64,000 nucleotides of DNA from Bacteroidales bacterium (GTDB lineage Bacteria > Bacteroidota > Bacteroidia > Bacteroidales > UBA10428). A program made the position numbers and the translations under genes. Each line of letters starts with the position of its first letter. Position 1 is the stretch's first letter. Below are positions 1,848 through 64,000 of this stretch, piece after piece. Location of the stretch: NCBI GenBank assembly GCA_016926235.1, contig JAFGOZ010000220.1:62001-126000 (forward strand). Reading direction: 5' to 3'. The notes beneath the pieces are model-generated. The model was not told the origin of the DNA. It saw nothing but the letters and a program-made list of their open reading frames with translations, and did not search any database.

Positions 1848-2044
1848 GCAATTAATCCTGTAAAATCATCTATTAGTAATGCTTTTTTGTCTATTAATCA
1901 ACTTATTTTGTAAAAAATAAATATTAACTTCAAATATATTTTCGAATTAGAATCAAAATGTGTTAATTTATTATTTATACTTAAATAGTAGTTTTTATTA
2001 TATCGTATTTTTATAATGTTAATTAAACCAAAACAATGTATACC

Positions 2045-19400: not shown

Positions 19401-20751
19401 GAATCCAATGAACCAAATGGTACATGCGGTAAGTTATACTCCCGACTGGTACACAACAGAATATAAATCGGAGGGTGGATGGTCATTGGAAATGGTTGAT
19501 TTAAATAATCCTTGTGGGGATTCTGATAATTGGAAAGAGAGTGCGGATAGTAGAGGGGGTACACCAGGGAAAATAAATTCTGTAGCAGGTTTAAATCCCG
19601 ATCTTGACTTTCCTGTAATTACAAATGCAACTCTTATGGGAGATACGACACTTTTGGTACAGTTCAATGAATCATTGGATAGCATAAGTGTTTATGAACC
19701 AAATTCTTATTCTGTAAATAATACGATTGGAAATCCCAGAAAAATAATTCCGGTTTATCCCGATTTCACAGAAGTACTTTTATGGTTTGACAATTCTTTT
19801 ACTACCAATACATTATATACTCTTACTATTGAGGGAAAAGTATGTGACTGTGTGGGTAATACCATTACCGAAAAGCAGGAAATTCAATTTGCTATTCCGG
19901 ATTCGGCCGAACCTCTTGATTTAATAGTAAATGAGATACTCTTTGATCCAAAGGGAGATGGTGTTGATTTTGTTGAGATCTATAATAATTCAGACAAAAT
20001 ACTGGATATCAGCCATATGTTAATTGGGCGGAAAAGAGATAGCATCCTCGATTTAGCTGCACTTTCGGAGAAAAACAGGCTTATTTTTCCAAATGAATTT
20101 TTGGCATTAACAATCAATCCTGAGAAAGTTTTACAGGATTATTACTCATCTAATCCTACTGGGGTGCTGGAAGTAAATGACCTTCCCAATTTCAGTAATG
20201 AATCTGACGAAGTTGTATTATTGGCTAGAGATCTTTCGGTTCTGGATGCATTTGCATATTCAGCAGATATGCATTATCCCTTGTTAACAAATATTGAAGG
20301 GGTATCCCTCGAGAGGATTAGTTATGAGAGACAAACAAATGAAGCTTCTAATTGGCATTCTGCTGCCGAAACCGTTGGATTTGCCACTCCTGCATATGAA
20401 AACTCACAACACCTTGAAGATGGAGAAATAAGCGATGGATTTACCATAGAACCTGAGGTTTTTTCACCTGATAATGATGGCTTTTATGATTTGGTAAGGA
20501 TAGGATATAAACTGGATGAACCTGGCTGTAAGGTTACTATCCGGGTTTTTGATGGATCAGGAAGAAGGATTTGCATTGTTGCAGATAATGAATTATTGGG
20601 ATTGGAGGGTTATTTTATATGGGATGGCACAAATGACGAGGGACAGAAAGCAAAAATGGGTATATACATAGTATATATTGAGATGATCTCTTTAAAGGGA
20701 GAAGTCACAAAAATGAAGAAACCTTGTATAATTGGGGGAAAATTTAACTAG
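16498..20751 (+). CDS. exported protein with an array of lamin-tail domains and FlgD-like C-terminus
   Basis: The protein has 1417 residues. The start is TTG, because an in-frame stop lies at 16480-16482 and the signal peptide (VKLSVFIILIDIVFSLNAQ) begins soon after; GGAGGT lies 17 bases upstream. Residues about 33-250 look like a concanavalin-like sandwich (LLFDFEDTTLTGW). Lamin-tail domains begin near residues 350, 610, 875 and 1145, three of them with VINEIMADPEP or a close variant. Each of the first three has a later GGWxxE or GGW-like segment and a GGTPG motif. Big_5-like Ig domains alternate with them. The C-terminus (FSPDNDGFYDLVRI, YFIWDGTNDEGQK) resembles FlgD-like/type B sorting domains of T9SS cargo. 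Its last four bases overlap the convergent GH105 gene. Confidence 0.8.
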   Translation: MAQKIVKSVFYVKLSVFIILIDIVFSLNAQENLLFDFEDTTLTGWVQYPDSAWISSDIDPIDGGYSLHHIFDHLEAGHDQIAYPLTNLRLSEDTTIWRFSLKHAYNPSSSNNWAFFLVSDQSANEMYPSGSVNGYAVGVDYSGSDDLVKLWRISSGSASEIVSSGLDWQNKIGTSQHAGIEVIRTPDGIWYLNFDTTGSFDHFFLLGAAADDNYLEASYFGVYYEYSATQDQKLWIDDISIEGAFIQDTLAPNIDTVWIEDENRLRLKFSEKLSDSCLIDTNFFVNEGIGHPDSVIIFSSSEALLYFSNAFKDESWHNLYAANMCDPYGNCADTIVVPFYYYSIKPNSVVINEIMADPEPVVGLPEFEYIELFNTCTHPVNLLGWSIIVGTRTLYFTERVLLPDSFLTICHKDAMTSFEPFGEVTGLLTSLSSLTNSGTTITLRNEKDEIINQVEYNKQWYNDPDKEEGGWALEKIDPDNNCSGSANWCASVHASGGTPGEINSVDRDNMDTIAPYLVSMELLDTNILQIMFNESVTEGSAKVISHYDLTNKGMADSVLYYGNSVHLYYSTGWVSETLYKINISDIMDLCGNTMIWDTAGFYYYLAKPDDIVINEIMADPEPLVGLPEYEYLELYNRCKYPVSLTGWRITVGTKSLSLPSQNLYPDSFLIICHPDAIDELSEYGVTAGILSSQSILTNSGQALLLQNHDGDTIDQLYYLPSWYQDNDKDEGGWSIERIDPDNNCGILSNWKASTDPSGGTPGTINSVYHPNIDKLPPNVTEVKVVSNSTIIISFSEIDEVEGLLNNYNYKGLYDLGYPDTVCIHQDGVLLEFPKRFQLSVNHTLIISGLIDICNNAMQVDTILFKYEMPEKYQILVSEIMADPDPQVGLPEVEYIEIYNNSTINTNLGDWKLKIGNSVIALPDYIFSAGSYLIICDKSDSALFSLYGQKMGIANFPALINTGQTIVLMNPMNQMVHAVSYTPDWYTTEYKSEGGWSLEMVDLNNPCGDSDNWKESADSRGGTPGKINSVAGLNPDLDFPVITNATLMGDTTLLVQFNESLDSISVYEPNSYSVNNTIGNPRKIIPVYPDFTEVLLWFDNSFTTNTLYTLTIEGKVCDCVGNTITEKQEIQFAIPDSAEPLDLIVNEILFDPKGDGVDFVEIYNNSDKILDISHMLIGRKRDSILDLAALSEKNRLIFPNEFLALTINPEKVLQDYYSSNPTGVLEVNDLPNFSNESDEVVLLARDLSVLDAFAYSADMHYPLLTNIEGVSLERISYERQTNEASNWHSAAETVGFATPAYENSQHLEDGEISDGFTIEPEVFSPDNDGFYDLVRIGYKLDEPGCKVTIRVFDGSGRRICIVADNELLGLEGYFIWDGTNDEGQKAKMGIYIVYIEMISLKGEVTKMKKPCIIGGKFN

Positions 20752-48376: not shown

Positions 48377-49765
48377 TTATTTGTCAAATCTCCATTCTCT
48401 CCATTCGTCACCAACTGCAGGGCTTATGTTTGTTTGGGGATTTTGTTCCTTATCATTTACCATTACAGACTTTAGGCTTACTTGTTCTTTTACATAGTCG
48501 GAAAGTTCTCCATAAGTAAGCTTTCCTTTGCTTTCCTGGAGTTTCTTTAGTATAAAGTAGGTAAACATACCGTGGCCTTTTTCTTTATATGGCAGGGACG
48601 ATTGCTCATCGCTACTGGCAGCATATACAATTAATTTACCTTGTAGTTGTTCTTCTTTTGGCTTTACTTTTACAGCTCTTGCCGATAGCAATCCCTGGTT
48701 GCGGGCTCCACCACTAAAGCAAGCATCAAGAAATACTGTGATTCGCTTACTGGGATATTCCGTTAGTTTAGTATACACATCTTTCAATTTCAGTGCAAAT
48801 TGGAGGTCTTTAGCACTTACGTCTACAGGCATTATATGGGGTTCTTTGGTAACTTCATCGGGGTAACCGTGGCCTGCATAAAAGAAGAAAACATCTGCAT
48901 TGCCATTGGCATTTTTTATGAGAAGGTTCATCTTGTTTAATGCCCTGTGCATAGTTACGGCATTGGCATTTACTTCGAAAACAATATTGTCATCGGGTAT
49001 ACCTAAAACTTTGATTGCATAATCTTTAAAAATTCTTGCGTCACTTTCAGCAAATTCAACATTGGATTCACTTTCTAAGCCGGTTTGATATGAACTATAA
49101 TCCTCATTTCCAAATATAAGAGCATACCGGTTCAGGTTTTTAGATGGGCCTTCGGGAATGTTCATATCCACGTCAGACACTACCCTTGTGCGCGTTGCAG
49201 CCGGTATATCATTGGTTTGTACATTTGTGGCTACAAGCTGGTTATTGCCTTCAACTGCTGCAACTTCAAAATCATCAACGGTAACAAATTTATCTGCCTC
49301 GATACGGCTTGTAAGATCTTTGTCAGTCAGGGTAAATTCCTTCTTATCTGCCTCAATTAGTTGATCCTGTCCTTCTTTAAAGGATAATAATTTAAGCGAA
49401 TTGATACCATATGCAACCGAAGCATCAAATTCCACAAAATAGGATTTGCCGGATTTTACCTCTAAAACAAGTTTATCCTTATCTTTACTTCCATCCACAA
49501 CTCTTAAAAAGAATTTTCCTTCTACAAATCGCTTTGCGACTATCCATTCAGATTTTGGATTTGAAGAGGCCGCTGTATTTATGCCCTTAAATTTCTCAAT
49601 ATATTCATCATTGAAATATACTTTATATGAAACGCCGGCATTTGTTGATTTAGCAATGCGGTGTATGTAAATAACAGCATAATCATCAGAAATATCTCTG
49701 GCACCTATGAAAAGCACCATACAAGCCAAACTTAAGAAATACGAAATCTTCCTGATAGTTTTCAT
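48377..49765 (-). CDS. caspase-family (C14) exported protein, second copy
   Basis: The protein has 462 residues and an N-terminal signal sequence (ISYFLSLACMVLFIGARD). Residues about 30-140 form a beta-rich domain (YIHRIAKSTNAGVSYKVYF, KSYFVEFDASVAYG) resembling DUF2846-type periplasmic domains, followed by a linker. The caspase domain is at about 215-462: YALIFGNEDYSSY, catalytic His299 in YAGHGYP and Cys349 in FLDACFSGG. It lacks the CARDB-like domains and the EF-hand-like loop of the 29-30.7 kb protein, so the two share only the protease part. Downstream of the lipoprotein gene and its terminator, it is probably transcribed alone. Confidence 0.85.
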   Translation of the reverse strand: MKTIRKISYFLSLACMVLFIGARDISDDYAVIYIHRIAKSTNAGVSYKVYFNDEYIEKFKGINTAASSNPKSEWIVAKRFVEGKFFLRVVDGSKDKDKLVLEVKSGKSYFVEFDASVAYGINSLKLLSFKEGQDQLIEADKKEFTLTDKDLTSRIEADKFVTVDDFEVAAVEGNNQLVATNVQTNDIPAATRTRVVSDVDMNIPEGPSKNLNRYALIFGNEDYSSYQTGLESESNVEFAESDARIFKDYAIKVLGIPDDNIVFEVNANAVTMHRALNKMNLLIKNANGNADVFFFYAGHGYPDEVTKEPHIMPVDVSAKDLQFALKLKDVYTKLTEYPSKRITVFLDACFSGGARNQGLLSARAVKVKPKEEQLQGKLIVYAASSDEQSSLPYKEKGHGMFTYFILKKLQESKGKLTYGELSDYVKEQVSLKSVMVNDKEQNPQTNISPAVGDEWREWRFDK

Positions 49766-50448: not shown

Positions 50449-53125
50449 ATTTTAAATGCTTACTGATTCTTGATAATAGTGCATCCGGATCTATTGGTTT
50501 TGCAATAAAATCAGTACACCCGGCATTAAAACATTTGGTCCTGTCTTCATCCATAGCAAACGCAGTTTGTGCGAGGATAGGTATTTTTTCTTCTATTTCT
50601 TTTATTTTTCTTGTAGTTTCGTAGCCATCCATATCGGGAAGTTGAATATCCATCAGTATTAGGTTGACCTTGTTGTTTTTAACGATTTCAATGGCATCGA
50701 ATCCATTACTGGCCATGAGCAATTTTACTCCTGTATCGCTTACTACTTCTGCTAAATACTGTTGACTTATATTGTCATCTTCCACAATGAGAATTGAATA
50801 TTGTGACCAGTCGTACCTGTCGTCAAGAGCAGGTTCGCTGGATGAGGCAGGGGCTATATCTTGTCGTCGGTAGGGTATAGTGAAATAAAATGTTGAACCA
50901 ACTCCCTGGATGGATTCGACCCAAATTTTGCCATGCAATAATTCTACCAGTCCTTTAGAGATGGCCAGGCCCAAACCCGGACCTCCATATCTCCTGGTTG
51001 AAAATTCTTCAGATTGACGGAACCTGTCAAAAATAATATCCTGTTTTTCTGGTGAGATGCCTATTCCTGTATCTTTCACAAAAAACTGAACTTCATCATT
51101 TTCAATACTGCAACCTACAAGTACTTCTCCCTGTTTTGTAAATTTTATTGCATTGTCAATCAGGTTTATTAAAATCTGTTTAAGCTTAACACTATCAGTT
51201 AGTATGTTCCCTTCACTAGTCCTGAACTGCTTTTTTATATATAGTGTTATGTCTTTGGCATCTTCTTCATTCAATTTTGAGAAAAAGAAGCTATACATTT
51301 CATCCAGCACATGGTTTAATGAAACGGCTGTTTCTGTAACTGACATTTGCGCAGACTCGATTTTTGAAATATCCAATATTTCATCAATAATCTGCAGAAG
51401 ATCTCGTGTACGTTCACGTATTATTTTTGTAAATTGTTTTCTCTTGTCTTCTTCTAGGTTAGGATTATCAATAAGTTTTGAAAATCCTATAATGCTGTTC
51501 ATAGGAGTTCTTATTTCATGGCTCATATTTGCCAGAAAAGCCGATTTTAGCTGATCTGCTTCTTCAGCTTTTTCTTTAGCTTTTATAAGTTCCTTTTCAT
51601 ATTCTTTTTGGTTGGTTATGTCTTTGGAAAAGAGTACAGCTTTTGAAACTTTGTTTTCTTCATCAAATATCGGGAAAATATGGTTTTCATATGAAAAGCC
51701 ATCTACTTTATCTTCAAATTCAATTTTACTCTTCTCAGAGAATGTATATTCAACCTGCTTCCTTCTATTTTCAGCAATTTCTTTATCAAAAAGGTCATAA
51801 TATGAGGAACCAATTAATTCTTCAGCTTTGGTGCTGGTCAATTCCAGTATGGTTTCGTTAAAGTCAAGTATAATGCCATCTTTGTTTATTAATATAATGC
51901 CGTCAACAGATGAATTTAATATTACCCTTGTAGTTCCTTCACTTTCACGTAAGGCATCCTGGGCTTTTTTAATACTTGTAATATCCTCAATAATACCATC
52001 AAAATATGCAATTTCTCCTTCACTATCCATTATAGCTTTACCCGTATCCCTTACCCATATTACCTTTCCGTCCTTTCTTTTAAAGCGGAGTTCATTACTA
52101 TGAATGCTTGAAGACATTATCCAGCTTTGCAATTGCATTTCCCTGTCAGATTCATTATAAAATGCTTTACTGGCGGTTGTACCCAATAATTCTTCTGTGT
52201 TGCTATAACCAAGGATAGATACAAGTGCCGGGTTTGCAAATAAAAAATCACCGTCTTTTGTAGTCCTGTATACACCTAATGGTAATTGGTTTGTCAGTGA
52301 TTTATATTTTTCTTCACTTAATTTCAAATCATTAAGTGCTTGCTTAAATACAGTGATATCCTCTATTATACCATCGAAGTATAAGATTCTTCCATTTTCA
52401 TTTTTAATAGCTTGTCCCGTGTCCCTTACCCAAATTACTTCTCCACTTTTCTTAGTGACTTGATGCTCAGAGATATGAACTCCGTCAGTTTTTATCCATT
52501 CTTTCAACAATTCTTCTCTTTTATTTTTATCGACGAAGACACTGCCTACATATATTTGAGATAATTCTTCAAAACTCGAATAACCAAGAATGTTAACAAG
52601 AGCAGGATTTGCATATAGGATTTGTCCGTCTTCTGTTGTGCGATATACTCCCAGTGGTAATTGCCCCGTAAGTGTTTTATATTTTTCTTTACTTTCAATA
52701 AAAGCAAGCTCAGTATTTTTGTACCTGGTAATGTCCTGAACAAACCCGTGTACAGATTCTACTTTTCCATCTGTGATAAAGGGGTCGCCTATTATCCGTA
52801 TCCACGTTTTATTGCCATTTCTGCGATAAAAATAGAAATCCATATCAAAGGTTATTCCTTCATTGATTGCAAGTAGCAGGGCGTTATTAAAAACTCCTTT
52901 TTCCTCTTCTCTTAACAAGTTGGTTATATCATCAATAGAAGGTTGCTTCTGTATATCCAGCTCAAAAATTTCGTACATTTCATCTGTCCAGGATATAATA
53001 TTTGCATTATGGTCAATTTCCCATCTCCCGGTTTGTGTTATCCTTTGGATGTTGTCAAGCAATGACTGTAATCTTTGGACCGTAACTTTATAATCCTCAA
53101 TATATTTCTTTGATTCTTCCATCAT
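50447..53125 (-). CDS. multi-PAS hybrid histidine kinase
   Basis: The protein has 892 residues and no membrane segment, so it is probably cytoplasmic. There are four PAS domains: about 20-130, 145-265, 270-390 and 395-510. The second and third are near-duplicates, each with LPLGVYRTT, a segment like FANPALVSILGYS and the VIWVRDTG motif. HisKA follows with the phospho-acceptor His near residue 533 in MSHEIRTPMNS. The ATPase has ILINLIDNAIKF, VKDTGIGISPEKQ and GGPGLGLAIS. A receiver domain ends it (LIVEDDNISQQYL, LILMDIQLPDMDGYETT with the phospho-Asp near 823). The signal and output are unknown; no separate response regulator is adjacent. Confidence 0.93.
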   Translation of the reverse strand: MMEESKKYIEDYKVTVQRLQSLLDNIQRITQTGRWEIDHNANIISWTDEMYEIFELDIQKQPSIDDITNLLREEEKGVFNNALLLAINEGITFDMDFYFYRRNGNKTWIRIIGDPFITDGKVESVHGFVQDITRYKNTELAFIESKEKYKTLTGQLPLGVYRTTEDGQILYANPALVNILGYSSFEELSQIYVGSVFVDKNKREELLKEWIKTDGVHISEHQVTKKSGEVIWVRDTGQAIKNENGRILYFDGIIEDITVFKQALNDLKLSEEKYKSLTNQLPLGVYRTTKDGDFLFANPALVSILGYSNTEELLGTTASKAFYNESDREMQLQSWIMSSSIHSNELRFKRKDGKVIWVRDTGKAIMDSEGEIAYFDGIIEDITSIKKAQDALRESEGTTRVILNSSVDGIILINKDGIILDFNETILELTSTKAEELIGSSYYDLFDKEIAENRRKQVEYTFSEKSKIEFEDKVDGFSYENHIFPIFDEENKVSKAVLFSKDITNQKEYEKELIKAKEKAEEADQLKSAFLANMSHEIRTPMNSIIGFSKLIDNPNLEEDKRKQFTKIIRERTRDLLQIIDEILDISKIESAQMSVTETAVSLNHVLDEMYSFFFSKLNEEDAKDITLYIKKQFRTSEGNILTDSVKLKQILINLIDNAIKFTKQGEVLVGCSIENDEVQFFVKDTGIGISPEKQDIIFDRFRQSEEFSTRRYGGPGLGLAISKGLVELLHGKIWVESIQGVGSTFYFTIPYRRQDIAPASSSEPALDDRYDWSQYSILIVEDDNISQQYLAEVVSDTGVKLLMASNGFDAIEIVKNNKVNLILMDIQLPDMDGYETTRKIKEIEEKIPILAQTAFAMDEDRTKCFNAGCTDFIAKPIDPDALLSRISKHLK

Positions 53126-53333: not shown

Positions 53334-55862
53334 TTATTTTTCTTCTGTCTCAGTTTTTGGTTTTAAGCTTTTATATATTTCAAACCCGAAACCGAGTAAA
53401 AGGAGCAAAATCATGGCAATTGAACTTGCTTTGGATATTTTGTTACCCGTGTAGTATGATTTTGGTTCAAACTTAAATTCAATAATATGATTTCCTTCCG
53501 GGATAATCATTCCGCGCAATACATAATTGATCCTGAAATATTCAGAAGGGTTACCATCTATAAAGGCATCCCATCCTTTATCATAATAGATTTCAGAGAA
53601 TACAGCCATTTGTTCTTTATTAGAATTGGACTGATATTTAAGATAGTTTGGCTGATATTCCAATAGTGCAATTTGTGCCGTGCTATCATAATTGGCTTTA
53701 AAATCATCAATGATACCGGAGAATCGGTTATCAATAACAGCGGTTAATGCCGGATTAATGCTATACAAAGCTTTATTCTCAGCATCTGCATTTTCTACCA
53801 TTTGATAATTTTTTACAAACCATGCATTGCCAAGAACATGTTTATTAATTAAAGGGCTCGCCTCAGGATTATATATAATGTATCTTGTATTAAGCATGTT
53901 CAGGGTTTTTAGCTTTGCCATAGTGCTATTTAATATTGCCATGGTGCTATCAAGGCTTAGTTTCGGAGGAAGGCTGTTAAAAGTATTACTTAATAGCTGA
54001 ATATCATTGTATATATGATTTTCAATTAATTCCTGGTAGCGCTTCATCTTCGCTCCATGATATCCACCAATAGATTTATGGTAGTATGAGGTTGAGGCAT
54101 CATTAAAAGTACTTACAGCCAGGTTGAGTACCCTGTAGTTCGGGTCTTTGTCAGCTAGTATATATTCATCAGCTTTTGTTGGAGTAAATATATTTTTCAC
54201 ATCTTTTTTAGTAATAAAATCCTCATTACTTATATACCTCTTATCTACAGGCCACATATCAAAAAGAATGAATGCGCCTGTTAGTACCAAGGCGTGATTT
54301 AATTTCAGTTTTTGTTTTATAAACAGGTAAATTATCACGAACGCAATTACAACAAAAACCAGGGAACGAAATGCATCAGCACTTAGCAAATGCTGTCGGT
54401 CAGCTTTTAATGCATCGACAAACTGAGTTGCTCCTTGTGATAAATAATATTCATCAGAGCCACCTGTAAAGTCGAAGAACATACCAGGGAAAAGGGCAAA
54501 GAAAAGACAAATACCGCCTACAATGTAAAAGGAATATTTTAAAGATTTTAACAGGTCTTTAGCAGGTATCTTATTCTCAAAAACCTCCTTTAAGGCTAAA
54601 ATTCCTAGCAAGGGTATTGTTAATTCTGCAATGACAAGTGTCATTGATACGGTCCGGAATTTATTATAGCCTGGGAAATGATCTAGGAAAAAGTTGGTTA
54701 GCCAGGGCAAATTTCTTCCCCATGCTAAGAGAATTGAAAAGATGGAGGCAATGACCAGCCACCATTTTGCTGGTCCTTTTAAAATGAACAAACCAAGTAC
54801 AAAAAGAAAAATCACTATAGCTCCAACATAAACCGGACCTGAAGTTCCAGGTTGCGCTCCCCAATACAAAGGCAATTGTTTTATAGCTTTTTTTGCATAA
54901 GCAGCTCCCTGACTTTGTTTTATTAGTTCATAGGTTGCAGAATTAGTGCCAAGTTCACCATCAGCGCTTCCTCCTCCATTGAAGTTAGGTATCAATAAGG
55001 TAAATGTTTCACCAATACCATAGCTCCAGTCTGTTGCATATGTTTTATCCAAACCTGTTGTTTTATCTTCTTTATCATCTGTAAGTTCTGATTTACTGCG
55101 CATAGAGTATTTGCCATATTCATATGTAGTCCAGAGGGTAGTTGCATTTACACCGATGGCAATCATAACTGCAAATAAAAGTAATGCACTGCCTGAAATA
55201 AATTGTTTTATTCTCTTTTCCTTAATCCCAAATACTAAATGAACCAAATACAGAATAAGAATTGTAAGCAGGGTATAGTAAGTTATTTGCAGGTGATTGT
55301 TCTTTATTTGAAGGGCCAGGAACAGGGCGCAGATTGAAGCTCCCAGTATCTGTTTTCGCGTAAGGCTCAGCACTACACCTCCTATAATTGCAGGCATATA
55401 TCCAATTGCTATTGCTTTAGCTGTATGCCCGGCATAAATAATTATGAAAAAGTATGATGAAAAAGCAAAGGCAATAGCCCCAACAATACTTAACCATGGA
55501 TTTACACGAAATGCCAGTAAAAGTATGTAGAAACCCAAAAGGTAAAGAAATATGAATTCTACAGGGCGTGGACCGACTTTTAATAATGCATCAATTGTGG
55601 GCACAAAAATCTGAGGTGCAGAGAAAGTAATAAGATACGAGGGCATACCGCCGAACATACTGTTTGTCCATAATGGATTTTGTTTATGTTCAGCAATATA
55701 TTTGGAAATTTCCTGCCTCATTCCCTCGGCTGTCTGGTTATCATGGCCACTAAAGGTTTTGCCTTCAAGCACCGGACTAAAATATATATATGAGATTGTT
55801 ATAAATATAACAATAGCCAGAAAATGAGGCCATAATTCTTTAAGTTTTTTAAAATCTGCCAT
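53334..55862 (-). CDS. YfhO family membrane protein
   Basis: This 842-residue protein has about 11-13 predicted membrane segments. The start MADFKKLKELWPHFLAIVIF and the periplasmic loop EGKTFSGHDNQ followed by NPLWTNSMFGGMPSYL fit the YfhO family (PF09586). Later parts include GGYHGAKMKRYQEL and a soluble C-terminal beta domain with the closing membrane segment IAMILLLLLGFGFEIY. YfhO is involved in glycosylation of lipoteichoic acid in Bacillus; in Bacteroidota it is linked to surface glycan processing. Here it is the last gene of the duplicated cassette and the intact copy; a short N-terminal remnant of a second copy lies at 57753-57941. Confidence 0.88.
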   Translation of the reverse strand: MADFKKLKELWPHFLAIVIFITISYIYFSPVLEGKTFSGHDNQTAEGMRQEISKYIAEHKQNPLWTNSMFGGMPSYLITFSAPQIFVPTIDALLKVGPRPVEFIFLYLLGFYILLLAFRVNPWLSIVGAIAFAFSSYFFIIIYAGHTAKAIAIGYMPAIIGGVVLSLTRKQILGASICALFLALQIKNNHLQITYYTLLTILILYLVHLVFGIKEKRIKQFISGSALLLFAVMIAIGVNATTLWTTYEYGKYSMRSKSELTDDKEDKTTGLDKTYATDWSYGIGETFTLLIPNFNGGGSADGELGTNSATYELIKQSQGAAYAKKAIKQLPLYWGAQPGTSGPVYVGAIVIFLFVLGLFILKGPAKWWLVIASIFSILLAWGRNLPWLTNFFLDHFPGYNKFRTVSMTLVIAELTIPLLGILALKEVFENKIPAKDLLKSLKYSFYIVGGICLFFALFPGMFFDFTGGSDEYYLSQGATQFVDALKADRQHLLSADAFRSLVFVVIAFVIIYLFIKQKLKLNHALVLTGAFILFDMWPVDKRYISNEDFITKKDVKNIFTPTKADEYILADKDPNYRVLNLAVSTFNDASTSYYHKSIGGYHGAKMKRYQELIENHIYNDIQLLSNTFNSLPPKLSLDSTMAILNSTMAKLKTLNMLNTRYIIYNPEASPLINKHVLGNAWFVKNYQMVENADAENKALYSINPALTAVIDNRFSGIIDDFKANYDSTAQIALLEYQPNYLKYQSNSNKEQMAVFSEIYYDKGWDAFIDGNPSEYFRINYVLRGMIIPEGNHIIEFKFEPKSYYTGNKISKASSIAMILLLLLGFGFEIYKSLKPKTETEEK

Positions 55863-55886
55863 TTATATAATTATTAAAATTGATTT

Positions 55887-56457
55887 TCAATTTCCAAATT
55901 TAATCAACTTTCCGTAACCATTGGAATAAAAGTGAAACTTATTAAAATTTTGACGGAACGGGTGGGTTGATGAATCATTAATTAAAATACATTCGGGTTC
56001 AACTGTTATTGATCTTATTTGCTTTATCTTTTTGTATTCGAGTTGTATAGAAATAATAATAGGCAATAATCTGATCTTATGTGTTTGAGGAAGTAATAGA
56101 AGACCTTTTTTGCCAAATATGGACCGGGTTTGATGCAATAAAGTCGAGAAACTGGTTTTTAAACTCAATAATAATATCTTTCTTTTTTTTCGGGAGCCTG
56201 ATGAATTATAATCATATTTTATCCAGTCACTTCCCAGAAGATCGAATCTATGCTGGAGGTACATATAGTTAAATGTTCAGTAACTTCCAGGGGATTGGTC
56301 GAAACATCTATTTCTTCCAGGTTAAATAAAGGTTTAAATGCCTTGTGTTCTGCATTATTGTTTTTTATATCCAGATTTGTGTCATTTTTTTTTGCTTTTT
56401 AAGAATCTTGTTACGCTGTTTTTTATGCAGGTATCTTTCAATTAATGAGAGTCTCGG
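55887..56457 (-). pseudogene. decayed heparinase II/III-like gene (copy A)
   Basis: Fragments of the intact gene at 57960-60167 can be read in order on the minus strand: RLSL near 56452, LEEIDVSTNPLEVTEHLT near 56325-56265, MYLQHRFDLLGSDWIKYDYN from 56264, EFKNQFLDFIASNP near 56165-56125, IIAYYY near 56065-56050, and FYSNGYGKLIKFGN at the end. They correspond to residues near 1, 64-85, 82-100, 212-230, 250-255 and 722-735 of the intact protein. The reading frame changes between them, there are internal stops, and about 450 residues are missing between the fragments near 250 and 722. The initiator Met has been replaced (CCG). Confidence 0.85.
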
Positions 56458-56491
56458 GATTTATAAAAATAGGGAAATATAGAAATGTCGT

Positions 56492-57694
56492 TTATTTATT
56501 CGTGAATTTATTAAGAATCTTTTCTACATGTTTGTCCCATGTATATTTCTTAACTACTTTTTTCAGCGCATTGTTGCCCAGTATTTTCAATTTATCCTTT
56601 TCTTGCACTAGCACTTCAATAGCATTAGTTAGCTCTTCCACATTACCTGGCTCAACAAGAATTGAGTCAACATCATGATCCAGTATCTCACCGACCTGTT
56701 CCAGGTTGCTTGCAATGATAGCTTTACCCATGGCCATATATTCAAACAGTTTGGTAGGGCTGCCAAAAAACTTGCTTCCGTCTACATTGTTAATATGGGG
56801 CGACAATAGTATGTCGCATGCAGCAAGGTGTTGAGGAGCCTGATTTTGAGGTATTAAACCGGTAAAAACTACATTTTCATTGCCAGGGGATTCAGATATT
56901 AGTTTTTTTACCTGCCCTGAAAGATTTCCATCTCCAATCAATAAAAACCTGATATTACTATTCTTGTTTCTTTCATAGTATTTTTTGATTGCTTTAGCCA
57001 TCTCGATAACTCCGTGCCATTGGCTGAATGTTCCTATAAATCCAACAACGATTTCTTTCCCGAAGTTATATTTTTCCCGAACGGAATCCCCCGAAATGGA
57101 TGGCGAAAATTTCTCCGGGGAAACACCATTTGGATTTACAATAATCTTACTTTCAGGGAATCCCCTCTGTACTAACTCTTCTTTTAGGTTATCTGAAACC
57201 ACAACAATCCATTTGGCAGTATGTAGATTATTTTTTTCAATTATACTTACCATTGGAAGCAAGAAAATGTATTTTACCATTTTTTTAAAAAAACTAAATA
57301 CAGGATTGCCTTTGGCGCCCCAATGTTTTATTTTCCATATTTCAGATGAGTTGTATTCAATAATCAGGGGCACATTATATTTTTTTGATAACGAAGCAGC
57401 CGAATAGGAGCATTTTGTCAACCTGTGATATATTGCATCGAATTGATTAATTTGTTTCCGGAGTTTTTTAATGATCGTACGATTATAAATGAGTTCTCTG
57501 ATATCAATTGGTAGCACTTTACTTTTTATTGGCGGGATAACCTCAACGGGCACTTCAACTTCAGGCAAACTTGAGTTGCTAACTACTTTCAGATCAGTTT
57601 TTTTTGCCATCGAATTGATTACCCCGGCAGTATGGCCCACCAAGCCCCCTGAATTGCCAAAGAAAAACAATGTACGCAGATAAAGGATTTTCAT
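56492..57694 (-). CDS. glycosyltransferase family 4 (intact copy A)
   Basis: The protein has 400 residues. The N-terminal Rossmann half starts MKILYLRTLFFFGNSGGLVG. The C-terminal half has the GT4 features VVGFIGTFSQWHGVIEMAKAI, FLLIGDGNLSGQVKKL and the donor-binding loop SPTKLFEYMAMGKAIIAS with the E(x7)E-type Glu before LVEPGN. There is no signal peptide; it probably acts on the cytoplasmic face of the membrane. GT4 enzymes are retaining; the sugar is unknown. A shortened homolog lies at 60151-60699. It is followed by the decayed heparinase and then intact YfhO. Confidence 0.9.
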   Translation of the reverse strand: MKILYLRTLFFFGNSGGLVGHTAGVINSMAKKTDLKVVSNSSLPEVEVPVEVIPPIKSKVLPIDIRELIYNRTIIKKLRKQINQFDAIYHRLTKCSYSAASLSKKYNVPLIIEYNSSEIWKIKHWGAKGNPVFSFFKKMVKYIFLLPMVSIIEKNNLHTAKWIVVVSDNLKEELVQRGFPESKIIVNPNGVSPEKFSPSISGDSVREKYNFGKEIVVGFIGTFSQWHGVIEMAKAIKKYYERNKNSNIRFLLIGDGNLSGQVKKLISESPGNENVVFTGLIPQNQAPQHLAACDILLSPHINNVDGSKFFGSPTKLFEYMAMGKAIIASNLEQVGEILDHDVDSILVEPGNVEELTNAIEVLVQEKDKLKILGNNALKKVVKKYTWDKHVEKILNKFTNK

Positions 57695-57752
57695 GATATT
57701 ATAGTTTGTTATAGTTAATCAACAAAACATAAACACGCGTTATTTAATCATT

Positions 57753-57941
57753 TTAATAATCCGCATTTATGAGATTAATGAAATCAGATGATTCTTTATC
57801 CATCCATAATGATGTTAAATTATTTTGTCCCGTAACGACTTTCCCTTCAATAGCTGCGCTGAAGTATACCATTGAGATTCCAATAAATATTGCTATCGCA
57901 ATAAGGTGTGGCGAAACTTGTTTTAAATATTTTAAAAGCAT
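57753..57941 (-). pseudogene. N-terminal remnant of a second YfhO-family gene (copy B)
   Basis: The open frame of 62 codons aligns with the start of the intact YfhO: HLIAIAIFIGISMVYFSAAI against HFLAIVIFITISYIYFSPVL, then EGKVVTGQNNLT against EGKTFSGHDNQT. After about residue 47 the likeness ends and the frame soon stops; the remaining 780 residues or so are absent. It follows the intact heparinase gene by 18 bases, the same position that intact YfhO has after the decayed heparinase. A functional one-segment membrane peptide cannot be excluded. Confidence 0.8.
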
Positions 57942-57959
57942 AATATAGTAGTTAATTTA

Positions 57960-60167
57960 TTATACTCCATTAAGTTTAATTAACTTTCCGTAACCATTCG
58001 AAAAATAATTAAAATTGTTGTAATTTACGTTAAATTCAATATCCGAGAAATCTTTAATTATAATACGGTCATCAGTTATTATAAAGTACCTGGCATGGAC
58101 ATAGTTTCTGTAAGATAAAAGAAATCCCAGGCTTTGATCTGTTTTTTCAATTACTTCACAATGATGTTGCTGTATAAGTTTAAATAAATCCCTTTTGTCC
58201 CCTGTGAAATTGTTTTGTTCTTCATTGCCGAACTGAACAGTATTATGCACTTTTGTACTCCTGAAATAGTTTCTCATTTCAGGGATCGGGGTGTAAAGAT
58301 AGGTTCCGGGATCAAATATCACGTCTTTTCCATCAATATAAAGGTCAAAGGATAGTTTGTCATTATGTCCGTGCCCCCCTTTTTTATTATGTCCTGTTGG
58401 ACCTGCTGAAATCGCAAGATATAACAAATCTGACCGAAAAATATACAAACCAAAATCAGGAAAACATTTGAATTGTAAATTATCGTATAAAGGTTGGTTA
58501 ATTTCAGCATCAGGTTTAAAAACGCTTTCTTTCGAGAATGCCCAGGAAGTTTTATGATGTTTTTTTATTACAAAGGTTTTTGGAATTGCAGTAATTTCCG
58601 ATTGATAATTTTGTAAGAAGCATTTTATTAAAGAATATTCGAGTGTACATGCAGGATTATACTCAAAGTTGCTGAAAATTCCTTTAAATGAAGACAATAA
58701 TGCAGAATGGTTAATTTGGTCTTCATCCCAAAAATTTTCATTTCCACTTGAATACTGATAAATAGTCTTTTCGTATGCACTTAAATTCAGATATTTTTTC
58801 CAGTTATTTCCAATGAATTCTCCGACAGGCGAAAACCTGAATAACCGTCCGCTGTCATTATCACCTATTTGTGCAATACGGCCGTTCTGTTTTGTCAGGT
58901 TATAAGTAAAATCAGCTGCATTTCTTAATATTTGTATAAACCATCCGGGGAGAATTTCATTTTGGTTTAACCATTTTTGTTGTTTTGGTTTCTTCAAAGG
59001 AGGGTTAGCATGCCAGCAGGTTCTTTTGTAATTACCAAGCAGGCTCCTAATTTTTTCAGCATTTCCAAGAATTATAGCCGAAGGATAAATGATTAACTCA
59101 GAACTTAGCCGGTGATAACTGGTTGAAGCTTCGTAATTGCTGCCATCCTCATTAAATTGTACTTTGGTTTGGTGGATTAATTCCTGGATGGAAAATGCCA
59201 GCCAGCTTTTAACCTTATCATTTTTGTATAGATAGAGTGCAATGAAGAAAAGCCCTGAAATATTGGAAAGATAGTGATTAGAAACAATTACTTCGCTGAA
59301 TTCCAGGTTGTTTGCAATATGGATGCCATGTTCATAGATAGTATTTGAAAATAATTGTTTAAAAGAATTATCAAGAATCCGGGCCTCATCTATCTGAGAG
59401 AGAATGTCGTAGGCAATAATAAGGTTTGCAGCTCTTATGGCCACATCCATGGTGCAAGTCCAACATACGCCCATACGGGGTGGGTTTGTTGCTGTAAAAT
59501 CCAGCACCTGGTTTCTAAATTCTCCAATGATTTCATTCTTCATCTCAGGAAGTACAAGGGCAAAAAATGCCATCTGTGAAAGATGTTGCATGCGTGCCAA
59601 TTCCCATGGTACTTTTAAATCACATCCGGGTTTGTTGAGTCCTCGCTGATCTTTATACCATAGGTTCTCCTTCCATCTAAATCCCGATTTATAATCTTTC
59701 TGCCAATCGATTGGGATATAATCCTGAGAGATCAATGTCCATATTTTTTTACTCTTTTCAGTATGGTTCTTATTCAGAATTTTCTCAAGCCAACCCCCTT
59801 TTTCATCAAACACAAGATCTTTAAGGTTCATGTCGAATTTTATTCCATCCAATCCTGGAACTTCGGAACTATGGTTGTTCCTTATCCATCCGCTGCCCAA
59901 TAAATCGTAGCGATGATCCATGTACATTTTACATAGAAATTCGGCAACCTCCTTTTTAATATCACTTACATTAATTTTATCCAGTTTAATAAACGATCCT
60001 TCAATTATTGGGAAGTTATGTTTTTCACGGGTATCAGAATGGAGATCTTTATAGCGGTCATGCTTATTATTATACTTTTCCAGAAATAGGTGGTATGCCC
60101 GTCTGATTATTAGTTTTGGAGGAGTATGGCGAAAAACTTCAATAATTGTTTTAAGAGATAATCTCAT
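57960..60167 (-). CDS. heparinase II/III family protein (intact copy B)
   Basis: The protein has 735 residues. The N-terminal alpha-helical part (about 75-430) includes MYMDHRYDLLGSGWIRN, GLDGIKFDMNLKDLVFDEKG and IVSNHYLSNISGLFFIAL. The C-terminal beta-sandwich has GGHGHNDKLSFDLYIDGKD near residue 600, FDPGTYLYTP and YFRSTKVHNTVQFGNE. The name refers to a lyase fold, but members in surface-polysaccharide clusters next to two-domain oxidoreductases are of unproven activity and may modify uronate-containing polymers. There is no signal peptide. The start overlaps the end of the truncated glycosyltransferase by 17 bases. A decayed copy lies at 55887-56457. Confidence 0.9.
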   Translation of the reverse strand: MRLSLKTIIEVFRHTPPKLIIRRAYHLFLEKYNNKHDRYKDLHSDTREKHNFPIIEGSFIKLDKINVSDIKKEVAEFLCKMYMDHRYDLLGSGWIRNNHSSEVPGLDGIKFDMNLKDLVFDEKGGWLEKILNKNHTEKSKKIWTLISQDYIPIDWQKDYKSGFRWKENLWYKDQRGLNKPGCDLKVPWELARMQHLSQMAFFALVLPEMKNEIIGEFRNQVLDFTATNPPRMGVCWTCTMDVAIRAANLIIAYDILSQIDEARILDNSFKQLFSNTIYEHGIHIANNLEFSEVIVSNHYLSNISGLFFIALYLYKNDKVKSWLAFSIQELIHQTKVQFNEDGSNYEASTSYHRLSSELIIYPSAIILGNAEKIRSLLGNYKRTCWHANPPLKKPKQQKWLNQNEILPGWFIQILRNAADFTYNLTKQNGRIAQIGDNDSGRLFRFSPVGEFIGNNWKKYLNLSAYEKTIYQYSSGNENFWDEDQINHSALLSSFKGIFSNFEYNPACTLEYSLIKCFLQNYQSEITAIPKTFVIKKHHKTSWAFSKESVFKPDAEINQPLYDNLQFKCFPDFGLYIFRSDLLYLAISAGPTGHNKKGGHGHNDKLSFDLYIDGKDVIFDPGTYLYTPIPEMRNYFRSTKVHNTVQFGNEEQNNFTGDKRDLFKLIQQHHCEVIEKTDQSLGFLLSYRNYVHARYFIITDDRIIIKDFSDIEFNVNYNNFNYFSNGYGKLIKLNGV

Positions 60168-60699
60168 AAAGTCTTGATATTATTTTTGATGTATTGATAT
60201 CACAGGTATATTTTTCCAAACCTATTTTACAGGCATTGTGGGCAACCTTCTTTTGTTTCTCAGGATCAAATTCATGTATAGCATCAGCTAATTGTTCCGG
60301 ATTTCCGCGTTCAACAAGCATAGCATCGGGGGGAAAATTAATTAAAGTTGGTTGTTTTAAATTATAATTTTCGATTATTATTGTTGAGGGGAGTAATAAA
60401 ATATACTTTATAAGTTTAGTAAATATAAAAAGGGGGGAATTTGATTTTGCTGCCCAGTTTTTTATTTTTCGCAATATTCTGAAATTGTACAATAACTCTT
60501 TGTATTTATTTGGCAAAAATGGAGTTTTAAGCGGCCTTATCAGGTTAAGGTAGTGGCTTGTTTTTGCCAATTGGTCGTTTGAAAATACCGTTAATGTATG
60601 TTTCTTACTATGAGAGTTATTAACACCGGCTGTATGCCCTACAGATCCCCCTGCAATTAAATTTAAAAGATAGACTGTTCGTAGATAAAGGATTTTCAT
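60151..60699 (-). pseudogene. internally deleted glycosyltransferase (copy B)
   Basis: The frame of 182 codons keeps both ends of the GT4 gene at 56492-57694: MKILYLRTVYLLNLIAGGSV, VGHTAGVNNSHSKKH, KNWAAKSNSP, IKYILLLPSTIIIENYN, then MLVERGNPEQLADAI and the C-terminus. About 45 residues are missing after ILRK and about 170 after ENYN, including the donor-sugar site. Both deletions leave the frame open, so a protein could still be made, but it could not be an active GT4 enzyme. Its first codons are nearly identical to those of the intact copy. It overlaps the heparinase start by 17 bases, so translation through it may still help expression of that gene. Confidence 0.8.
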
Positions 60700-60711
60700 A
60701 AACCAGTACTA

Positions 60712-62844
60712 TTATTCTTTTATTGCTTCTAGTGTTACTTTAGTAGTTTGTAGCATATCCCATAATTCGATAGGCCAGCTGCTATCATCTCCGCTCAAAG
60801 CAGATTGAAGTCTTTCAAGTTCTTCTAAATGTCCTTTTTGACTAACTGAAGTTGAAACCTCTTTCACCTTTAGCCCATATCCTTTCATTGTCTTAAAGTC
60901 TTCCATTATTATAGTTTTTTCATCAAAGTGAACCTCCATATATTCTTTGGGCAGGGCTCGGCTTCCCAAAGCAAAATATTGGATACAACATACAGAACCG
61001 TCTTTGTATTTGAGGGTAATAGTTTTATTATCAGATTCTGAAAAATAATCAGTCTTTGGAGCAAGGCTATCCACGCTTATAGTCAATATTTCAGAATTAG
61101 TGAATGATGTCATGAGATCAATGATATGACAACATTCTCCTACAATCCTTCCTCCATCTTCATGTACCCAGTGCTCTTTGGGTAAATAACCGGCATTCAT
61201 TCTATAATAGATGAACAATGGATTTACCCTCTTATCGGTATGCTTTTTTATTTCAGTGGTATATTTGCTGAATCTTCTGTTGAAACCGGTCATCAACACC
61301 GGGGCGCTGTTATTATTATAATAAAATTCTTCAATTTGTATTAGTTCTTCATAGTTTGTTGTCAGTGGTTTTTCTACAAAAACATGTTTCCCGGCGTTAA
61401 GACATTTAAGTACGAGTTCTCCGTGATTTTTATGCCTTGTACAAATCATCATCAAATCTACATCTTTGTCTGATAGAGCGTCTTCAATATTTGTTGTTGC
61501 ATAATTGGCACCAAATTGTTTTGCTACTGTTTTTGCTTTTATCCCGGTGCGATTAACAACACAATGCAACTTATATTTATCGGACAACTTCTGAATATTC
61601 GGAAGATGGATATTAGTTGCAAAACTTCCTGCTCCGACTAAAGCGATATTAATTATATTATTCTTGCATTTTATTCCATTTCTAATTATCATTTTTTGAT
61701 TATTAGAATGTTCTTCAATATCATTGTTGTTTTCTTCATATTTAAGTAAAACTATTAATGGTTTGTGTGGTTTTTTAAATTCCTCAAATGCTTCTTCTAC
61801 CTTGTTAATAGGGAAAACCCCTTGAATTAATTTGTCAACCTTGACACCTTCTGTAGTTAGCAACCTTAAATATTCAAGCATATTTCGATTTTCTGTCCAT
61901 CTCACATAGGCATAGGGATAATCGTTCCCCTTTTCCTCATAATTTTTGTCATATCTTCCGGGACCATAGGATGTAGAAATTTGAAAATCAAGTTCTTTAG
62001 AATATATATCTGCTCTGTTTATTTCCATTTTTGAAACCCCGACCAATATGACTTTACCTTTCTTTTTACACATCTGAAAAGCCTGCGAAAGGGGTTCGCT
62101 GCTTGATGTAGCTGCCGTAAATATAGCAGCATCAACTCCATAACCTCCTGTCCAATTTCCAATAGTTTTAACGGGGTTCTCTTCAGAGGAATTGATAGCT
62201 AGTTCTGCTCCAAGTTCTATTGCTAATTTAAGCCTATTTTCATCAATATCTATTGCAGCAACTCTAATACCGGAGTATTTTAACATTTGAATTGTAAGCA
62301 GGCCTAAAATACCTGCACCTGTAACTACACAATACTCGCCAAAACTAAGATTTGCCCTTCGTACACCTTGCATTGCAATACCTCCTAAAGTAACTGTTGA
62401 AGCTGATTGAAAATCCAGTTTTTCGGGCATAAGCATTACAAGATTCTCCGGCGCTACTATATATTCTGCATGATTGGCATACCCACCTCCGGCAACTGCA
62501 ACCCGATCCCCTGCTTTATATTTAGATACTTCTTTCCCTATTGCAACAACAATGCCCGAAACAGAATATCCGGTAGCACTTCCGCCATCTAAAAGACCTT
62601 TAACCTTTTTATAAGTATTTACTATGCCCATCGCTTTCACATCTTGTAAAACAGAAATTGCTTTCTCAGGCTTTTCCATAACCCTCTTGTATAAGGGTTT
62701 CCCGCTGTCTTTTACCCCACTGGATTCAGTTCCCGCAGAAATGCAAGAAAAAAATACCTTAACTAAAACCTGTCCTTTCTCAACAACAGGTGCCGGAATA
62801 TCTTCTGATAAAACTTTTCCTTTTTTTACAATTGCTTGTTTCAT
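60712..62844 (-). CDS. two-domain oxidoreductase: zinc-type alcohol dehydrogenase fused to Gfo/Idh/MocA
   Basis: The protein has 710 residues. The first part (about 1-365) is a medium-chain dehydrogenase: CISAGTESSGVKDSG, ATGYSVSGIVVAIG, the NAD site VVTGAGILGLLTIQML near residue 168 and GVDAAIFTAATSS. A linker rich in Asn and Glu (about 368-395) leads to a Gfo/Idh/MocA domain with IALVGAGSFATNIHLPNI, GKHVFVEKPLTTN near 490 and GGRIVGECCHIIDLM near 570. Such fusions recur next to heparinase II/III genes in O-antigen and exopolysaccharide clusters, and probably oxidise or epimerise a nucleotide sugar; the exact reaction is not known. It is directly upstream of the cassette and downstream of the SGNH-like gene. 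Confidence 0.9.
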   Translation of the reverse strand: MKQAIVKKGKVLSEDIPAPVVEKGQVLVKVFFSCISAGTESSGVKDSGKPLYKRVMEKPEKAISVLQDVKAMGIVNTYKKVKGLLDGGSATGYSVSGIVVAIGKEVSKYKAGDRVAVAGGGYANHAEYIVAPENLVMLMPEKLDFQSASTVTLGGIAMQGVRRANLSFGEYCVVTGAGILGLLTIQMLKYSGIRVAAIDIDENRLKLAIELGAELAINSSEENPVKTIGNWTGGYGVDAAIFTAATSSSEPLSQAFQMCKKKGKVILVGVSKMEINRADIYSKELDFQISTSYGPGRYDKNYEEKGNDYPYAYVRWTENRNMLEYLRLLTTEGVKVDKLIQGVFPINKVEEAFEEFKKPHKPLIVLLKYEENNNDIEEHSNNQKMIIRNGIKCKNNIINIALVGAGSFATNIHLPNIQKLSDKYKLHCVVNRTGIKAKTVAKQFGANYATTNIEDALSDKDVDLMMICTRHKNHGELVLKCLNAGKHVFVEKPLTTNYEELIQIEEFYYNNNSAPVLMTGFNRRFSKYTTEIKKHTDKRVNPLFIYYRMNAGYLPKEHWVHEDGGRIVGECCHIIDLMTSFTNSEILTISVDSLAPKTDYFSESDNKTITLKYKDGSVCCIQYFALGSRALPKEYMEVHFDEKTIIMEDFKTMKGYGLKVKEVSTSVSQKGHLEELERLQSALSGDDSSWPIELWDMLQTTKVTLEAIKE

Positions 62845-62848
62845 TAGT

Positions 62849-63754
62849 TTAATTTTTAATGGAATATATTACTTTTCCTGTAGTAATTTCTTTCTTTACA
62901 ATTTTTGCAATAGAATCATTAAAGTGAAATGGATCCTCAAAATTATCTTTATTCTTTGTTATATCATTTGGATAATCAAAATCGTAAACAGTTCCAGTAC
63001 CCGCTAAATCTTCTTTAAATTTAAATTCGTATTTTTCCAAATGAAAATCTTTCACTCTTTTTTGCAATTCAATATGAGTTGGAGGAATATAAAAAATTAA
63101 TTTTATTCCATTCGTTTTGCAGTATTCAGAGATATGTGCAAGTTCTCTGGAATAATAATCCGGATAGGCGTATTTTTCGTAAAACATTTTTGCCCTGTTT
63201 AGCTGAAAATCCCAAAAATCTTTCTTTGACATATTGGGCTTATTTCTTTCTATTTTGTCTTTTACAAAAAGATTCTTGATAATTAGAAGAGAAGATTCAA
63301 AAACGTACTTATTTGTAGAATATGAGAAAAAATTAGCTGTTCTTTCTAAAGTTTCCTCTACCCAAAAACTCTTATTAAAAGCATTGTAAAGGTTAAAATT
63401 AATACCAATAATAACAGTATCCAGTTCAACAGTTTTTGATGCAAACCAAAACGTCTGAATAATTTCTTTTATGCTTCCTCCGCCATATGATAGATTGCTC
63501 CATTCAGAAGGGTTAAACTGCTTTGCAAGTGCATTAGTTCTTGAATCTCCCAAAAGAATATTATGGGTCGGAGCGTTTTGAAAATGCAATATCTGATACA
63601 AATGAGGCTCAACAGAGCACGCTATATCAGATTTTTTATCTATACTAATAACCGAATAACCGTAATAACTGTAAGGGTCTATCAACAATATCAGCACCAA
63701 ATAAGTACAGAAAGGAGTAATAAAAAAGAGAGATTTTTTAATAAATTTCCACAT
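62849..63754 (-). CDS. membrane-anchored SGNH-like protein (polysaccharide acylation partner)
   Basis: The protein has about 301 residues. I placed the start at the ATG at 63754 because the longer open frame overlaps the upstream acyltransferase gene in another frame. One N-terminal membrane segment (KSLFFITPFCTYLVLILLI) is followed by an extracytoplasmic domain with ILLGDSRTNAL (block I of SGNH hydrolases, Ser in GDSR) near residue 70, the glycine segment SYGGGS, and DPFHFND near the end, providing the Asp and His. The layout resembles AlgJ/AlgX or DltD-like proteins that accompany MBOAT acyltransferases. It starts eight bases after the MBOAT stop, supporting a two-gene acylation unit. Confidence 0.75.
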   Translation of the reverse strand: MWKFIKKSLFFITPFCTYLVLILLIDPYSYYGYSVISIDKKSDIACSVEPHLYQILHFQNAPTHNILLGDSRTNALAKQFNPSEWSNLSYGGGSIKEIIQTFWFASKTVELDTVIIGINFNLYNAFNKSFWVEETLERTANFFSYSTNKYVFESSLLIIKNLFVKDKIERNKPNMSKKDFWDFQLNRAKMFYEKYAYPDYYSRELAHISEYCKTNGIKLIFYIPPTHIELQKRVKDFHLEKYEFKFKEDLAGTGTVYDFDYPNDITKNKDNFEDPFHFNDSIAKIVKKEITTGKVIYSIKN

Positions 63755-63762
63755 AAATTTAA

Positions 63763-64000
63763 TCAGAATTGAAAATAAATAAAATCTTGTTGAACTCCAT
63801 TCATAGCAAAACACGAGATAATTAAAGCGTAATACAGTCCCCAGCGAAGCATTTTGGGAATGCGAATGCCACTTATTTCTAATGCATATTCTCTGTTTCT
63901 GTTAATCCACTCAATGAAGATGAAAATTATTAGAAAGAAAAATAAATACCAGATGTGCTTACCAGGATAAATTGAGCCAATATCTTTAACAGGAGATGTA
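63763..64000 (-). CDS. C-terminal part of an MBOAT-family O-acyltransferase (5' cut by window edge)
   Basis: An open frame enters from the window edge and ends at the TGA complement at 63763-63765. It encodes SIYPGKHIWYLFFFLIIFIF, then WINRNREYALEISG, then RWGLYYALIISCFAMNG, and ends in QQDFIYFQF. Two membrane segments and the terminal FIYFQF are characteristic of AlgI-like MBOAT enzymes, which move acetyl groups across the membrane to polysaccharides. The catalytic His lies outside the window. It begins the polysaccharide cluster and pairs with the SGNH-like gene. Confidence 0.8.
   Translation of the reverse strand, partial: TSPVKDIGSIYPGKHIWYLFFFLIIFIFIEWINRNREYALEISGIRIPKMLRWGLYYALIISCFAMNGVQQDFIYFQF

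Follow-up and report, generated by a model that had tools for sequence, protein, structure and literature searches.

How do two sets of the same three genes, neither of them whole, come to lie side by side in one bacterial genome? On the minus strand of the window (the whole stretch of DNA analysed here, 64,000 nucleotides), a search of open reading frames and families found a GT4 glycosyltransferase (GT), a heparinase-like protein (HEP) and a YfhO protein twice, in identical order. The original prediction explained the pattern by duplication and reciprocal loss, and the question raised by the locus is whether duplication or the merger of two already diverged gene sets accounts better for what is left of them.

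Layout and state of the two gene sets

Read along the minus strand, the order is the 62849-63814 protein, OXR, the GT_B remnant, HEP_B, the YfhO_B stub, GT_A, the HEP_A remnant and YfhO_A. The features are as follows.

60712..62844, minus strand: OXR, fused ADH / GFO-IDH-MocA oxidoreductase, intact, adjoining GT_B on its upstream side (Pfam)
60151..60699, minus strand: GT_B, GT4 remnant of 182 open codons with two large internal losses
57960..60167, minus strand: HEP_B, heparinase II/III-like, intact, 735 aa (Hepar_II_III_N and _C)
57753..57941, minus strand: YfhO_B, N-terminal YfhO stub of 62 residues (alignment to YfhO_A)
56492..57694, minus strand: GT_A, GT4 glycosyltransferase, intact, 400 aa (GT4 models)
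about 55887..56491, minus strand: HEP_A, heparinase-like remnant broken up over three frames, with ~23% of the gene still to be recognised
53334..55862, minus strand: YfhO_A, YfhO family membrane protein, intact, 842 aa (Pfam YfhO)

The 62849-63814 protein, provisionally labelled SGNH, is unassigned and had no Pfam or NCBIfam match. Base composition singles out neither cassette copy as foreign. Coordinates and gene calls bore out the layout originally described, with the GT4-heparinase-YfhO order occurring twice: copy A holds an intact GT4 (GT_A, 400 aa), an intact YfhO (YfhO_A, 842 aa) and a fragmented heparinase, and copy B an intact heparinase (HEP_B, 735 aa), an internally deleted GT4 and only the N-terminus of YfhO (62 residues).

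The three complete genes are well preserved. GT_A matched both the N- and the C-terminal GT4 domain models above cut-off and keeps 59 of the 60 family columns conserved at the 97% level, and no NCBIfam equivalog among the matches listed for it reached its cut-off. In HEP_B both Pfam domains scored above gathering, and of the 79 columns conserved at the 97% level it keeps 78; it falls short of HepC, the heparin-sulfate lyase NCBIfam equivalog giving 41 bits against a curated cut-off of 700. YfhO_A reached 34.9 bits with the Pfam YfhO model (cut-off 28.5).

A Pfam search at E 0.001 gave no family for the two remnant ORFs, and they were recognised by comparison with their counterparts and relatives. 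GT_B, which matches GT_A above chance (E 7e-21 when the window was searched), is a single open frame of 182 codons corresponding to GT_A residues 1 to ~79, ~120-161 and ~340-397; since the stretches of GT_A between these blocks are absent, ~40 and ~180 codons have been lost. HEP_A consists of four recognisable pieces in three frames, with 168 alignable residues compared with the 735 of HEP_B, and HEP relatives match it with E values as low as 2e-17, though the database searched was just 711 bases long. The alignment of YfhO_B with YfhO_A runs to about residue 57.

What remains of the decayed genes is still fairly conserved. Of the 34 columns that 90% or more of the family conserve, the parts left in GT_B keep 25 (GT_A keeps 31), and of the 16 at the 97% level they keep 12. 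The recognisable pieces of HEP_A keep 22 of 24 columns (HEP_B 23 of 24) and 15 of 16 at the 97% level, values that run too high, since the alignment was limited to recognisable pieces, which favours conserved ones. GT_B is nevertheless unlikely to work as a GT4, because the conserved FFGSPTKLFEYMAMGK stretch has been lost.

Each copy is thus without what the other keeps, YfhO_B having perhaps been truncated from the start; equally, a diverged homologue adjoins the gene that it would have displaced. Here the claim that exactly one working copy of each gene survives holds as a description of the gene states. It tells less about history than was supposed: complementarity is weak evidence, because when each of the three pairs loses one member at random, 6 of the 8 possible outcomes combine genes of both cassettes, and YfhO_B was perhaps never a full gene.

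An open frame in the glycosyltransferase remnant

GT_B overlaps the start of HEP_B by 17 bases, and the remnant may be more than debris if translational coupling to HEP_B has held its frame open, an idea compatible with either history that we consider rather unlikely. There is no stop in 182 codons spanning two large losses, and in a neutral simulation at ~22–26% residue change only ~7–14% of runs stayed stop-free; HEP_A, in contrast, has no such open frame. This makes a frame still open after so much change look slightly unusual, in line with coupling. However, the evidence is post hoc and weak, as the test was made after the pattern had been seen, and the loss of the conserved stretch from GT_B also speaks against a retained role.

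Divergence of the copies and age of the decay

The base-by-base comparison put forward with the original prediction turned out against a recent duplication. Matching stretches of the two copies are only ~62–72% identical in DNA, and when the copies are aligned codon by codon the DNA identity is 55–56%. We also asked how often the codon is identical where aligned positions encode one amino acid in both sequences, taking the expectation from codon usage in the window. GT_A and GT_B share the codon at 36 of 79 positions (35.7 expected) and the YfhO pair at 11 of 25 (expected share 0.44). HEP_A and HEP_B do so at 33 of 63, a slight, non-significant excess over the 27.6 expected (P ~0.09) that is similar in size to that of HEP_B against a Maribellus HEP. 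As congener controls, the HEPs of Maribellus sp. CM-23 and M. luteus (L004 and L005) gave shares of 0.94 and 0.89. The other control comparisons gave values close to those of the window copies: 0.48 for the HEPs (0.46 expected) and 0.44 for the GTs of L010 (Maribellus maritimus) and L011, 0.43 and 0.42 for GT_A against L010 and L011, 0.43 for HEP_B against L010, 0.47 for HEP_B against L004b (0.43 expected, P 0.07), and 0.39 between the two adjacent HEPs of L004. Because their codon sharing resembles such controls, the distance between the copies is roughly that expected between genes from separate genera. They do not share synonymous codons well above the codon-usage expectation, as recent duplicates should, and synonymous sites between them are at or near saturation.

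A recent local duplication followed by reciprocal loss would explain why the two copies agree in gene order and orientation and complement each other in what they keep. We regard it as extremely improbable, given the 62–72% identity and a codon sharing at background (GT, YfhO) or near it (HEP) when congeners reach 0.89–0.94; unless the pairs are misaligned, the synonymous sites contradict it. The complementary decay on which the claim of reciprocal loss was built stands, and a recent duplication as its cause does not, in view of the saturation and of the GT_A gap described below. An assembly error uniting the loci of two organisms is also highly improbable. The window's proteins do come from one contig of 266,654 bases, but the copies are too diverged for strains of one species and the remnants are much shortened.

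Saturation also bears on timing. The remnants keep most conserved positions despite a codon sharing close to expectation, so the copies diverged long before decaying; sequence free of constraint since saturation would have lost far more, which would place the decay much later than the divergence.

Kinship of the copies

Refutation had been expected from phylogenies placing the copies in unrelated clades, and the trees decided for neither outcome. A quick tree placed GT_A with L010/L011 and their kin, and the clear split of the GT copies into different clades that it indicated was dropped once a tree uniting the copies came out better in the AU test. In the careful GT tree (42 rows) GT_A and GT_B were joined weakly (56/73), and their union had an AU p of 0.689. 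For HEP_A with HEP_B the AU p was 0.797 on the quick and 0.447 on the careful tree. HEP_B was placed with Prolixibacteraceae rows in the quick tree and with P0054 only (90/80) in the careful one, and HEP_A stayed unplaced. A likeness of HEP_A to L010/L011 seen by eye was likewise dropped, scores favouring L007, P0003 and L008. The trees neither confirm nor reject sisterhood of the copies.

Other characters can be read alongside them. We counted rare residues shared by the two copies and compared the counts with those of other members of the families (136 for GT, 69 for HEP). At a 10% cut-off the GT copies share 4 and the HEP copies 4, with 8–11 family members sharing more; at 15% the numbers are 5 and 4, with 15–27 members sharing more. 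At 25% the HEP copies share 10 (10 and 17 of the 69 members share more) and the GT copies 14, which ranks them near the top, only 4 and 1 of the 136 members sharing more. A one-residue gap near the start of GT_A is common to P0122, P0123, P0125, P0129, L004, L010 and L011 (P0123 and P0129 being identical to L010 and L011); in total 8 of 138 rows carry it, GT_A included, and GT_B and 129 other rows are without it. The N-terminus of YfhO_A scores 139, 129 and 123 with YfhOs of other genomes against 122 with YfhO_B, whereas the best score of YfhO_B is with YfhO_A itself (122; best of 40 others, 111).

These characters bear on an old duplication in place, in which GT-HEP-YfhO (or GT-HEP together with only the 5' end of YfhO) was doubled in tandem, both copies worked and diverged to saturation, and the later loss of one copy per gene changed the order GT-HEP-YfhO to HEP-GT-YfhO, a reading that we consider possible and somewhat doubtful. 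It would fit the weak sisterhood of the GT copies, its survival in the AU tests and the best match of YfhO_B to YfhO_A. It sits less well with copies that share fewer rare residues than many other pairs do at the 10–15% cut-offs, and with the gap present in GT_A and absent from GT_B; as the gap occurs in other genomes, the duplication must predate it, or the gap arose in parallel.

Related loci and genomic distribution

Of 345 loci found, 80 were kept for a comparison of neighbourhoods, some of them ending at HEP and hence unable to show a neighbour. Judged from match borders, HEP is preceded on its own strand by a GT no more than 300 bases away in 24 of the 80, and a GT follows it within 300 bases in three (L004, L010 and L011). 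Sixteen are Bacteroidota by record title, and 10 of these contain YfhO in the fetched stretch. YfhO directly follows HEP on the same strand in none of these 10 and in both window copies, a coincidence that duplication explains more simply. OXR relatives are present in many other HEP loci.

The examination of the locus in related genomes that had been proposed also showed the order surviving in the window elsewhere. The Maribellus maritimus locus (L010) has the same three genes in the order HEP-GT-YfhO, with OXR upstream, which is also in keeping with the ancient duplication. Its proteins are 42–53% identical to those of the window; unlike in the window, the scan detected no GT, HEP or YfhO remnant there, and HEP and GT overlap. 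Maribellus sp. CM-23 and M. luteus resemble the window in having two diverged HEPs next to each other (40–41% identical within each genome) with GT, OXR and YfhO nearby, and differ from it in that both HEPs are full-length open frames. These side-by-side HEPs lie at L004 6743-11127 and L005 6734-11193; taken as one clade, they were not clearly rejected by the AU test (p 0.096). We also scanned the 80 loci for pieces of GT, HEP or YfhO outside frames of at least 280 codons, with the outermost 200 bases of each contig excluded. Apart from hits in L008 and L018, which cover an intact HEP, such pieces turned up in L065 alone, at two GT places.

HEP is sporadic among relatives of the window's genome. 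A sample of 393 genomes of the order contained one with a match (E 1e-60), and two families had 5 among 140 (one match partial) and 1 among 173 genomes (E 1e-40); the searches were built around known holders, and these are among the genomes counted. YfhO, on the other hand, is mostly single near the window's relatives, though not single in every Bacteroidota genome: it was matched in 162 of 173 genomes of one family (E 1e-60; 156 once, six twice), once each in the five nearest genomes (G001–G005) and once in G010, and G006 had no match. Two matches were found on one contig in each of G008 and G009, and the distant genomes G007 and G012 had five matches on three contigs and three on two, respectively. 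In G007, a Flavobacteriaceae MAG, the YfhO relatives on three contigs (L136, L140 and L144) are possibly several YfhO genes; G007 and G012 being distant, their multiple matches leave the weighing of the readings as it was. Since near relatives mostly hold one YfhO, long retention of two would be unusual there, and this counts against the ancient duplication: saturation implies that the copies coexisted for long, yet YfhO is single in 156 of the 162 genomes and in G001–G005. The CarB of the window is 71–74% identical to that of 5 of the 12 genomes searched (three Maribellus, a Prolixibacteraceae MAG and the Bacteroidetes MAG B6_G9), and best matches in the remaining seven are only 41–45%, which points to Bacteroidales.

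We also considered YfhO as a standing border of polysaccharide loci and rejected it. In 11 of 12 genomes picked from the YfhO matches of one Bacteroidales family (L119–L130), the nearest frame upstream of YfhO reads as a PepD-like peptidase (translations judged by eye), unlike in the Maribellus polysaccharide loci; neither the window nor the first 80 loci gave a match to this protein.

Other features of the window

Outside the cassettes, two very long proteins (2036-7738 and 8799-14186) carry a C-terminal Por_Secre_tail sorting domain, one with MAM and one with Big_12 Ig-like domains, and a 1417-aa ORF (16498-20751) has four lamin-tail domain stretches and an Ig-like match. A caspase-domain (Peptidase_C14) protein at 48377-49765 has ~210 residues ahead of the domain. 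A 115-nt direct repeat of 74% identity (52205-52319 and 52580-52694) lies inside the ORF of a PAS-rich histidine kinase and probably reflects repeated PAS domains.

Origin of the two gene sets

Two copies in the same order, their states, their near-saturation divergence and the mild decay of conserved positions in the remnants are what is observed. Beyond them, we lean towards import over ancient duplication: a diverged cassette would have been imported beside a resident one, followed by overlapping loss, in a mosaic exopolysaccharide locus caught in the middle of a merger. We give this account about an even chance. It is favoured over a very old duplication because YfhO is mostly single, HEP is sporadic and adjacent diverged HEPs occur in related loci. 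The small number of rare residues shared at the stricter cut-offs, the gap that GT_A has in common with GTs of other genomes and the greater closeness of the YfhO_A N-terminus to YfhOs elsewhere point the same way. Against import, the trees do not separate the copies, both copies have the HEP-YfhO adjacency that the 10 comparable loci lack, neither copy stands out as foreign in base composition, a single clade of the adjacent Maribellus HEPs is not clearly rejected, YfhO_B scores best with YfhO_A, the GT copies rank high for shared residues at the 25% cut-off, HEP shows a slight codon excess, and YfhO is not single in every genome. A donor was not found among the relatives compared, the best being 48% identical to HEP_B and 53–55% to GT_A.

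Under import, GT_A-HEP_A-YfhO_A would be the resident block, an assignment that is itself conjectural, and a diverged block with matching gene order (GT_B, HEP_B and the 5' end of YfhO_B) would have been inserted immediately upstream. Its source would be another member of the same broad group, and OXR possibly arrived with it. A single copy of each gene would then have been enough, the incoming GT and the resident HEP decaying largely through deletions, and the outcome would be the chimeric set HEP_B-GT_A-YfhO_A. The fuller proposition, that two diverged GT-HEP-YfhO cassettes fuse by alternating loss into HEP-GT-YfhO with one remnant kept open for coupling, we advance only tentatively and think improbable on balance.

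Function and relation to known systems

The survivors HEP_B, GT_A and YfhO_A are predicted to act together in surface polysaccharide synthesis. From family knowledge, sugar transfer on the inner side of the membrane would fall to the GT4, and cleavage of polymer beyond the cytoplasm to the heparinase-like protein. One study reports that YfhO is needed for teichoic acid glycosylation in Bacillus subtilis, as is a homologue in Listeria (PMC5836110), and in a figure legend on Kiritimatiellae yfhO is named in a gene list together with GT4 and GT2 glycosyltransferases (PMC7356697).

Two known patterns of operon evolution invite comparison with the locus. A 2003 study of mosaic operons reportedly described operon genes with different histories, in which residents had been replaced in place by diverged homologues. 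The window would be similar in combining genes of differing history and a diverged homologue in place of a resident; it differs in that remnants of what was displaced can still be seen next to the surviving genes, and in that the different histories are deduced here from divergence and not from resolved trees. In tandem duplication-random loss, alternating losses from two same-order copies produce a new gene order. Two same-order copies with alternating losses are also what the window contains, but they are at synonymous saturation, which excludes a fresh duplicate, and a common local origin is no more than putative. Among the matches listed in a literature search, the four papers on this process were mitochondrial by title, and no title or abstract opening described such a bacterial locus; we make no claim of absence.

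This is one locus, and loss of surplus genes is not surprising in loci of this kind. Mosaic operons are usually recognised only once the displaced genes are gone, whereas here survivors and debris stand together. If the proposed history is true, the window is a snapshot of gene-order change in a bacterial operon, and the resulting HEP-GT-YfhO order exists without visible remnants in Maribellus maritimus. The locus lets one ask how a second polysaccharide cassette integrates, which copies win and how gene order changes.
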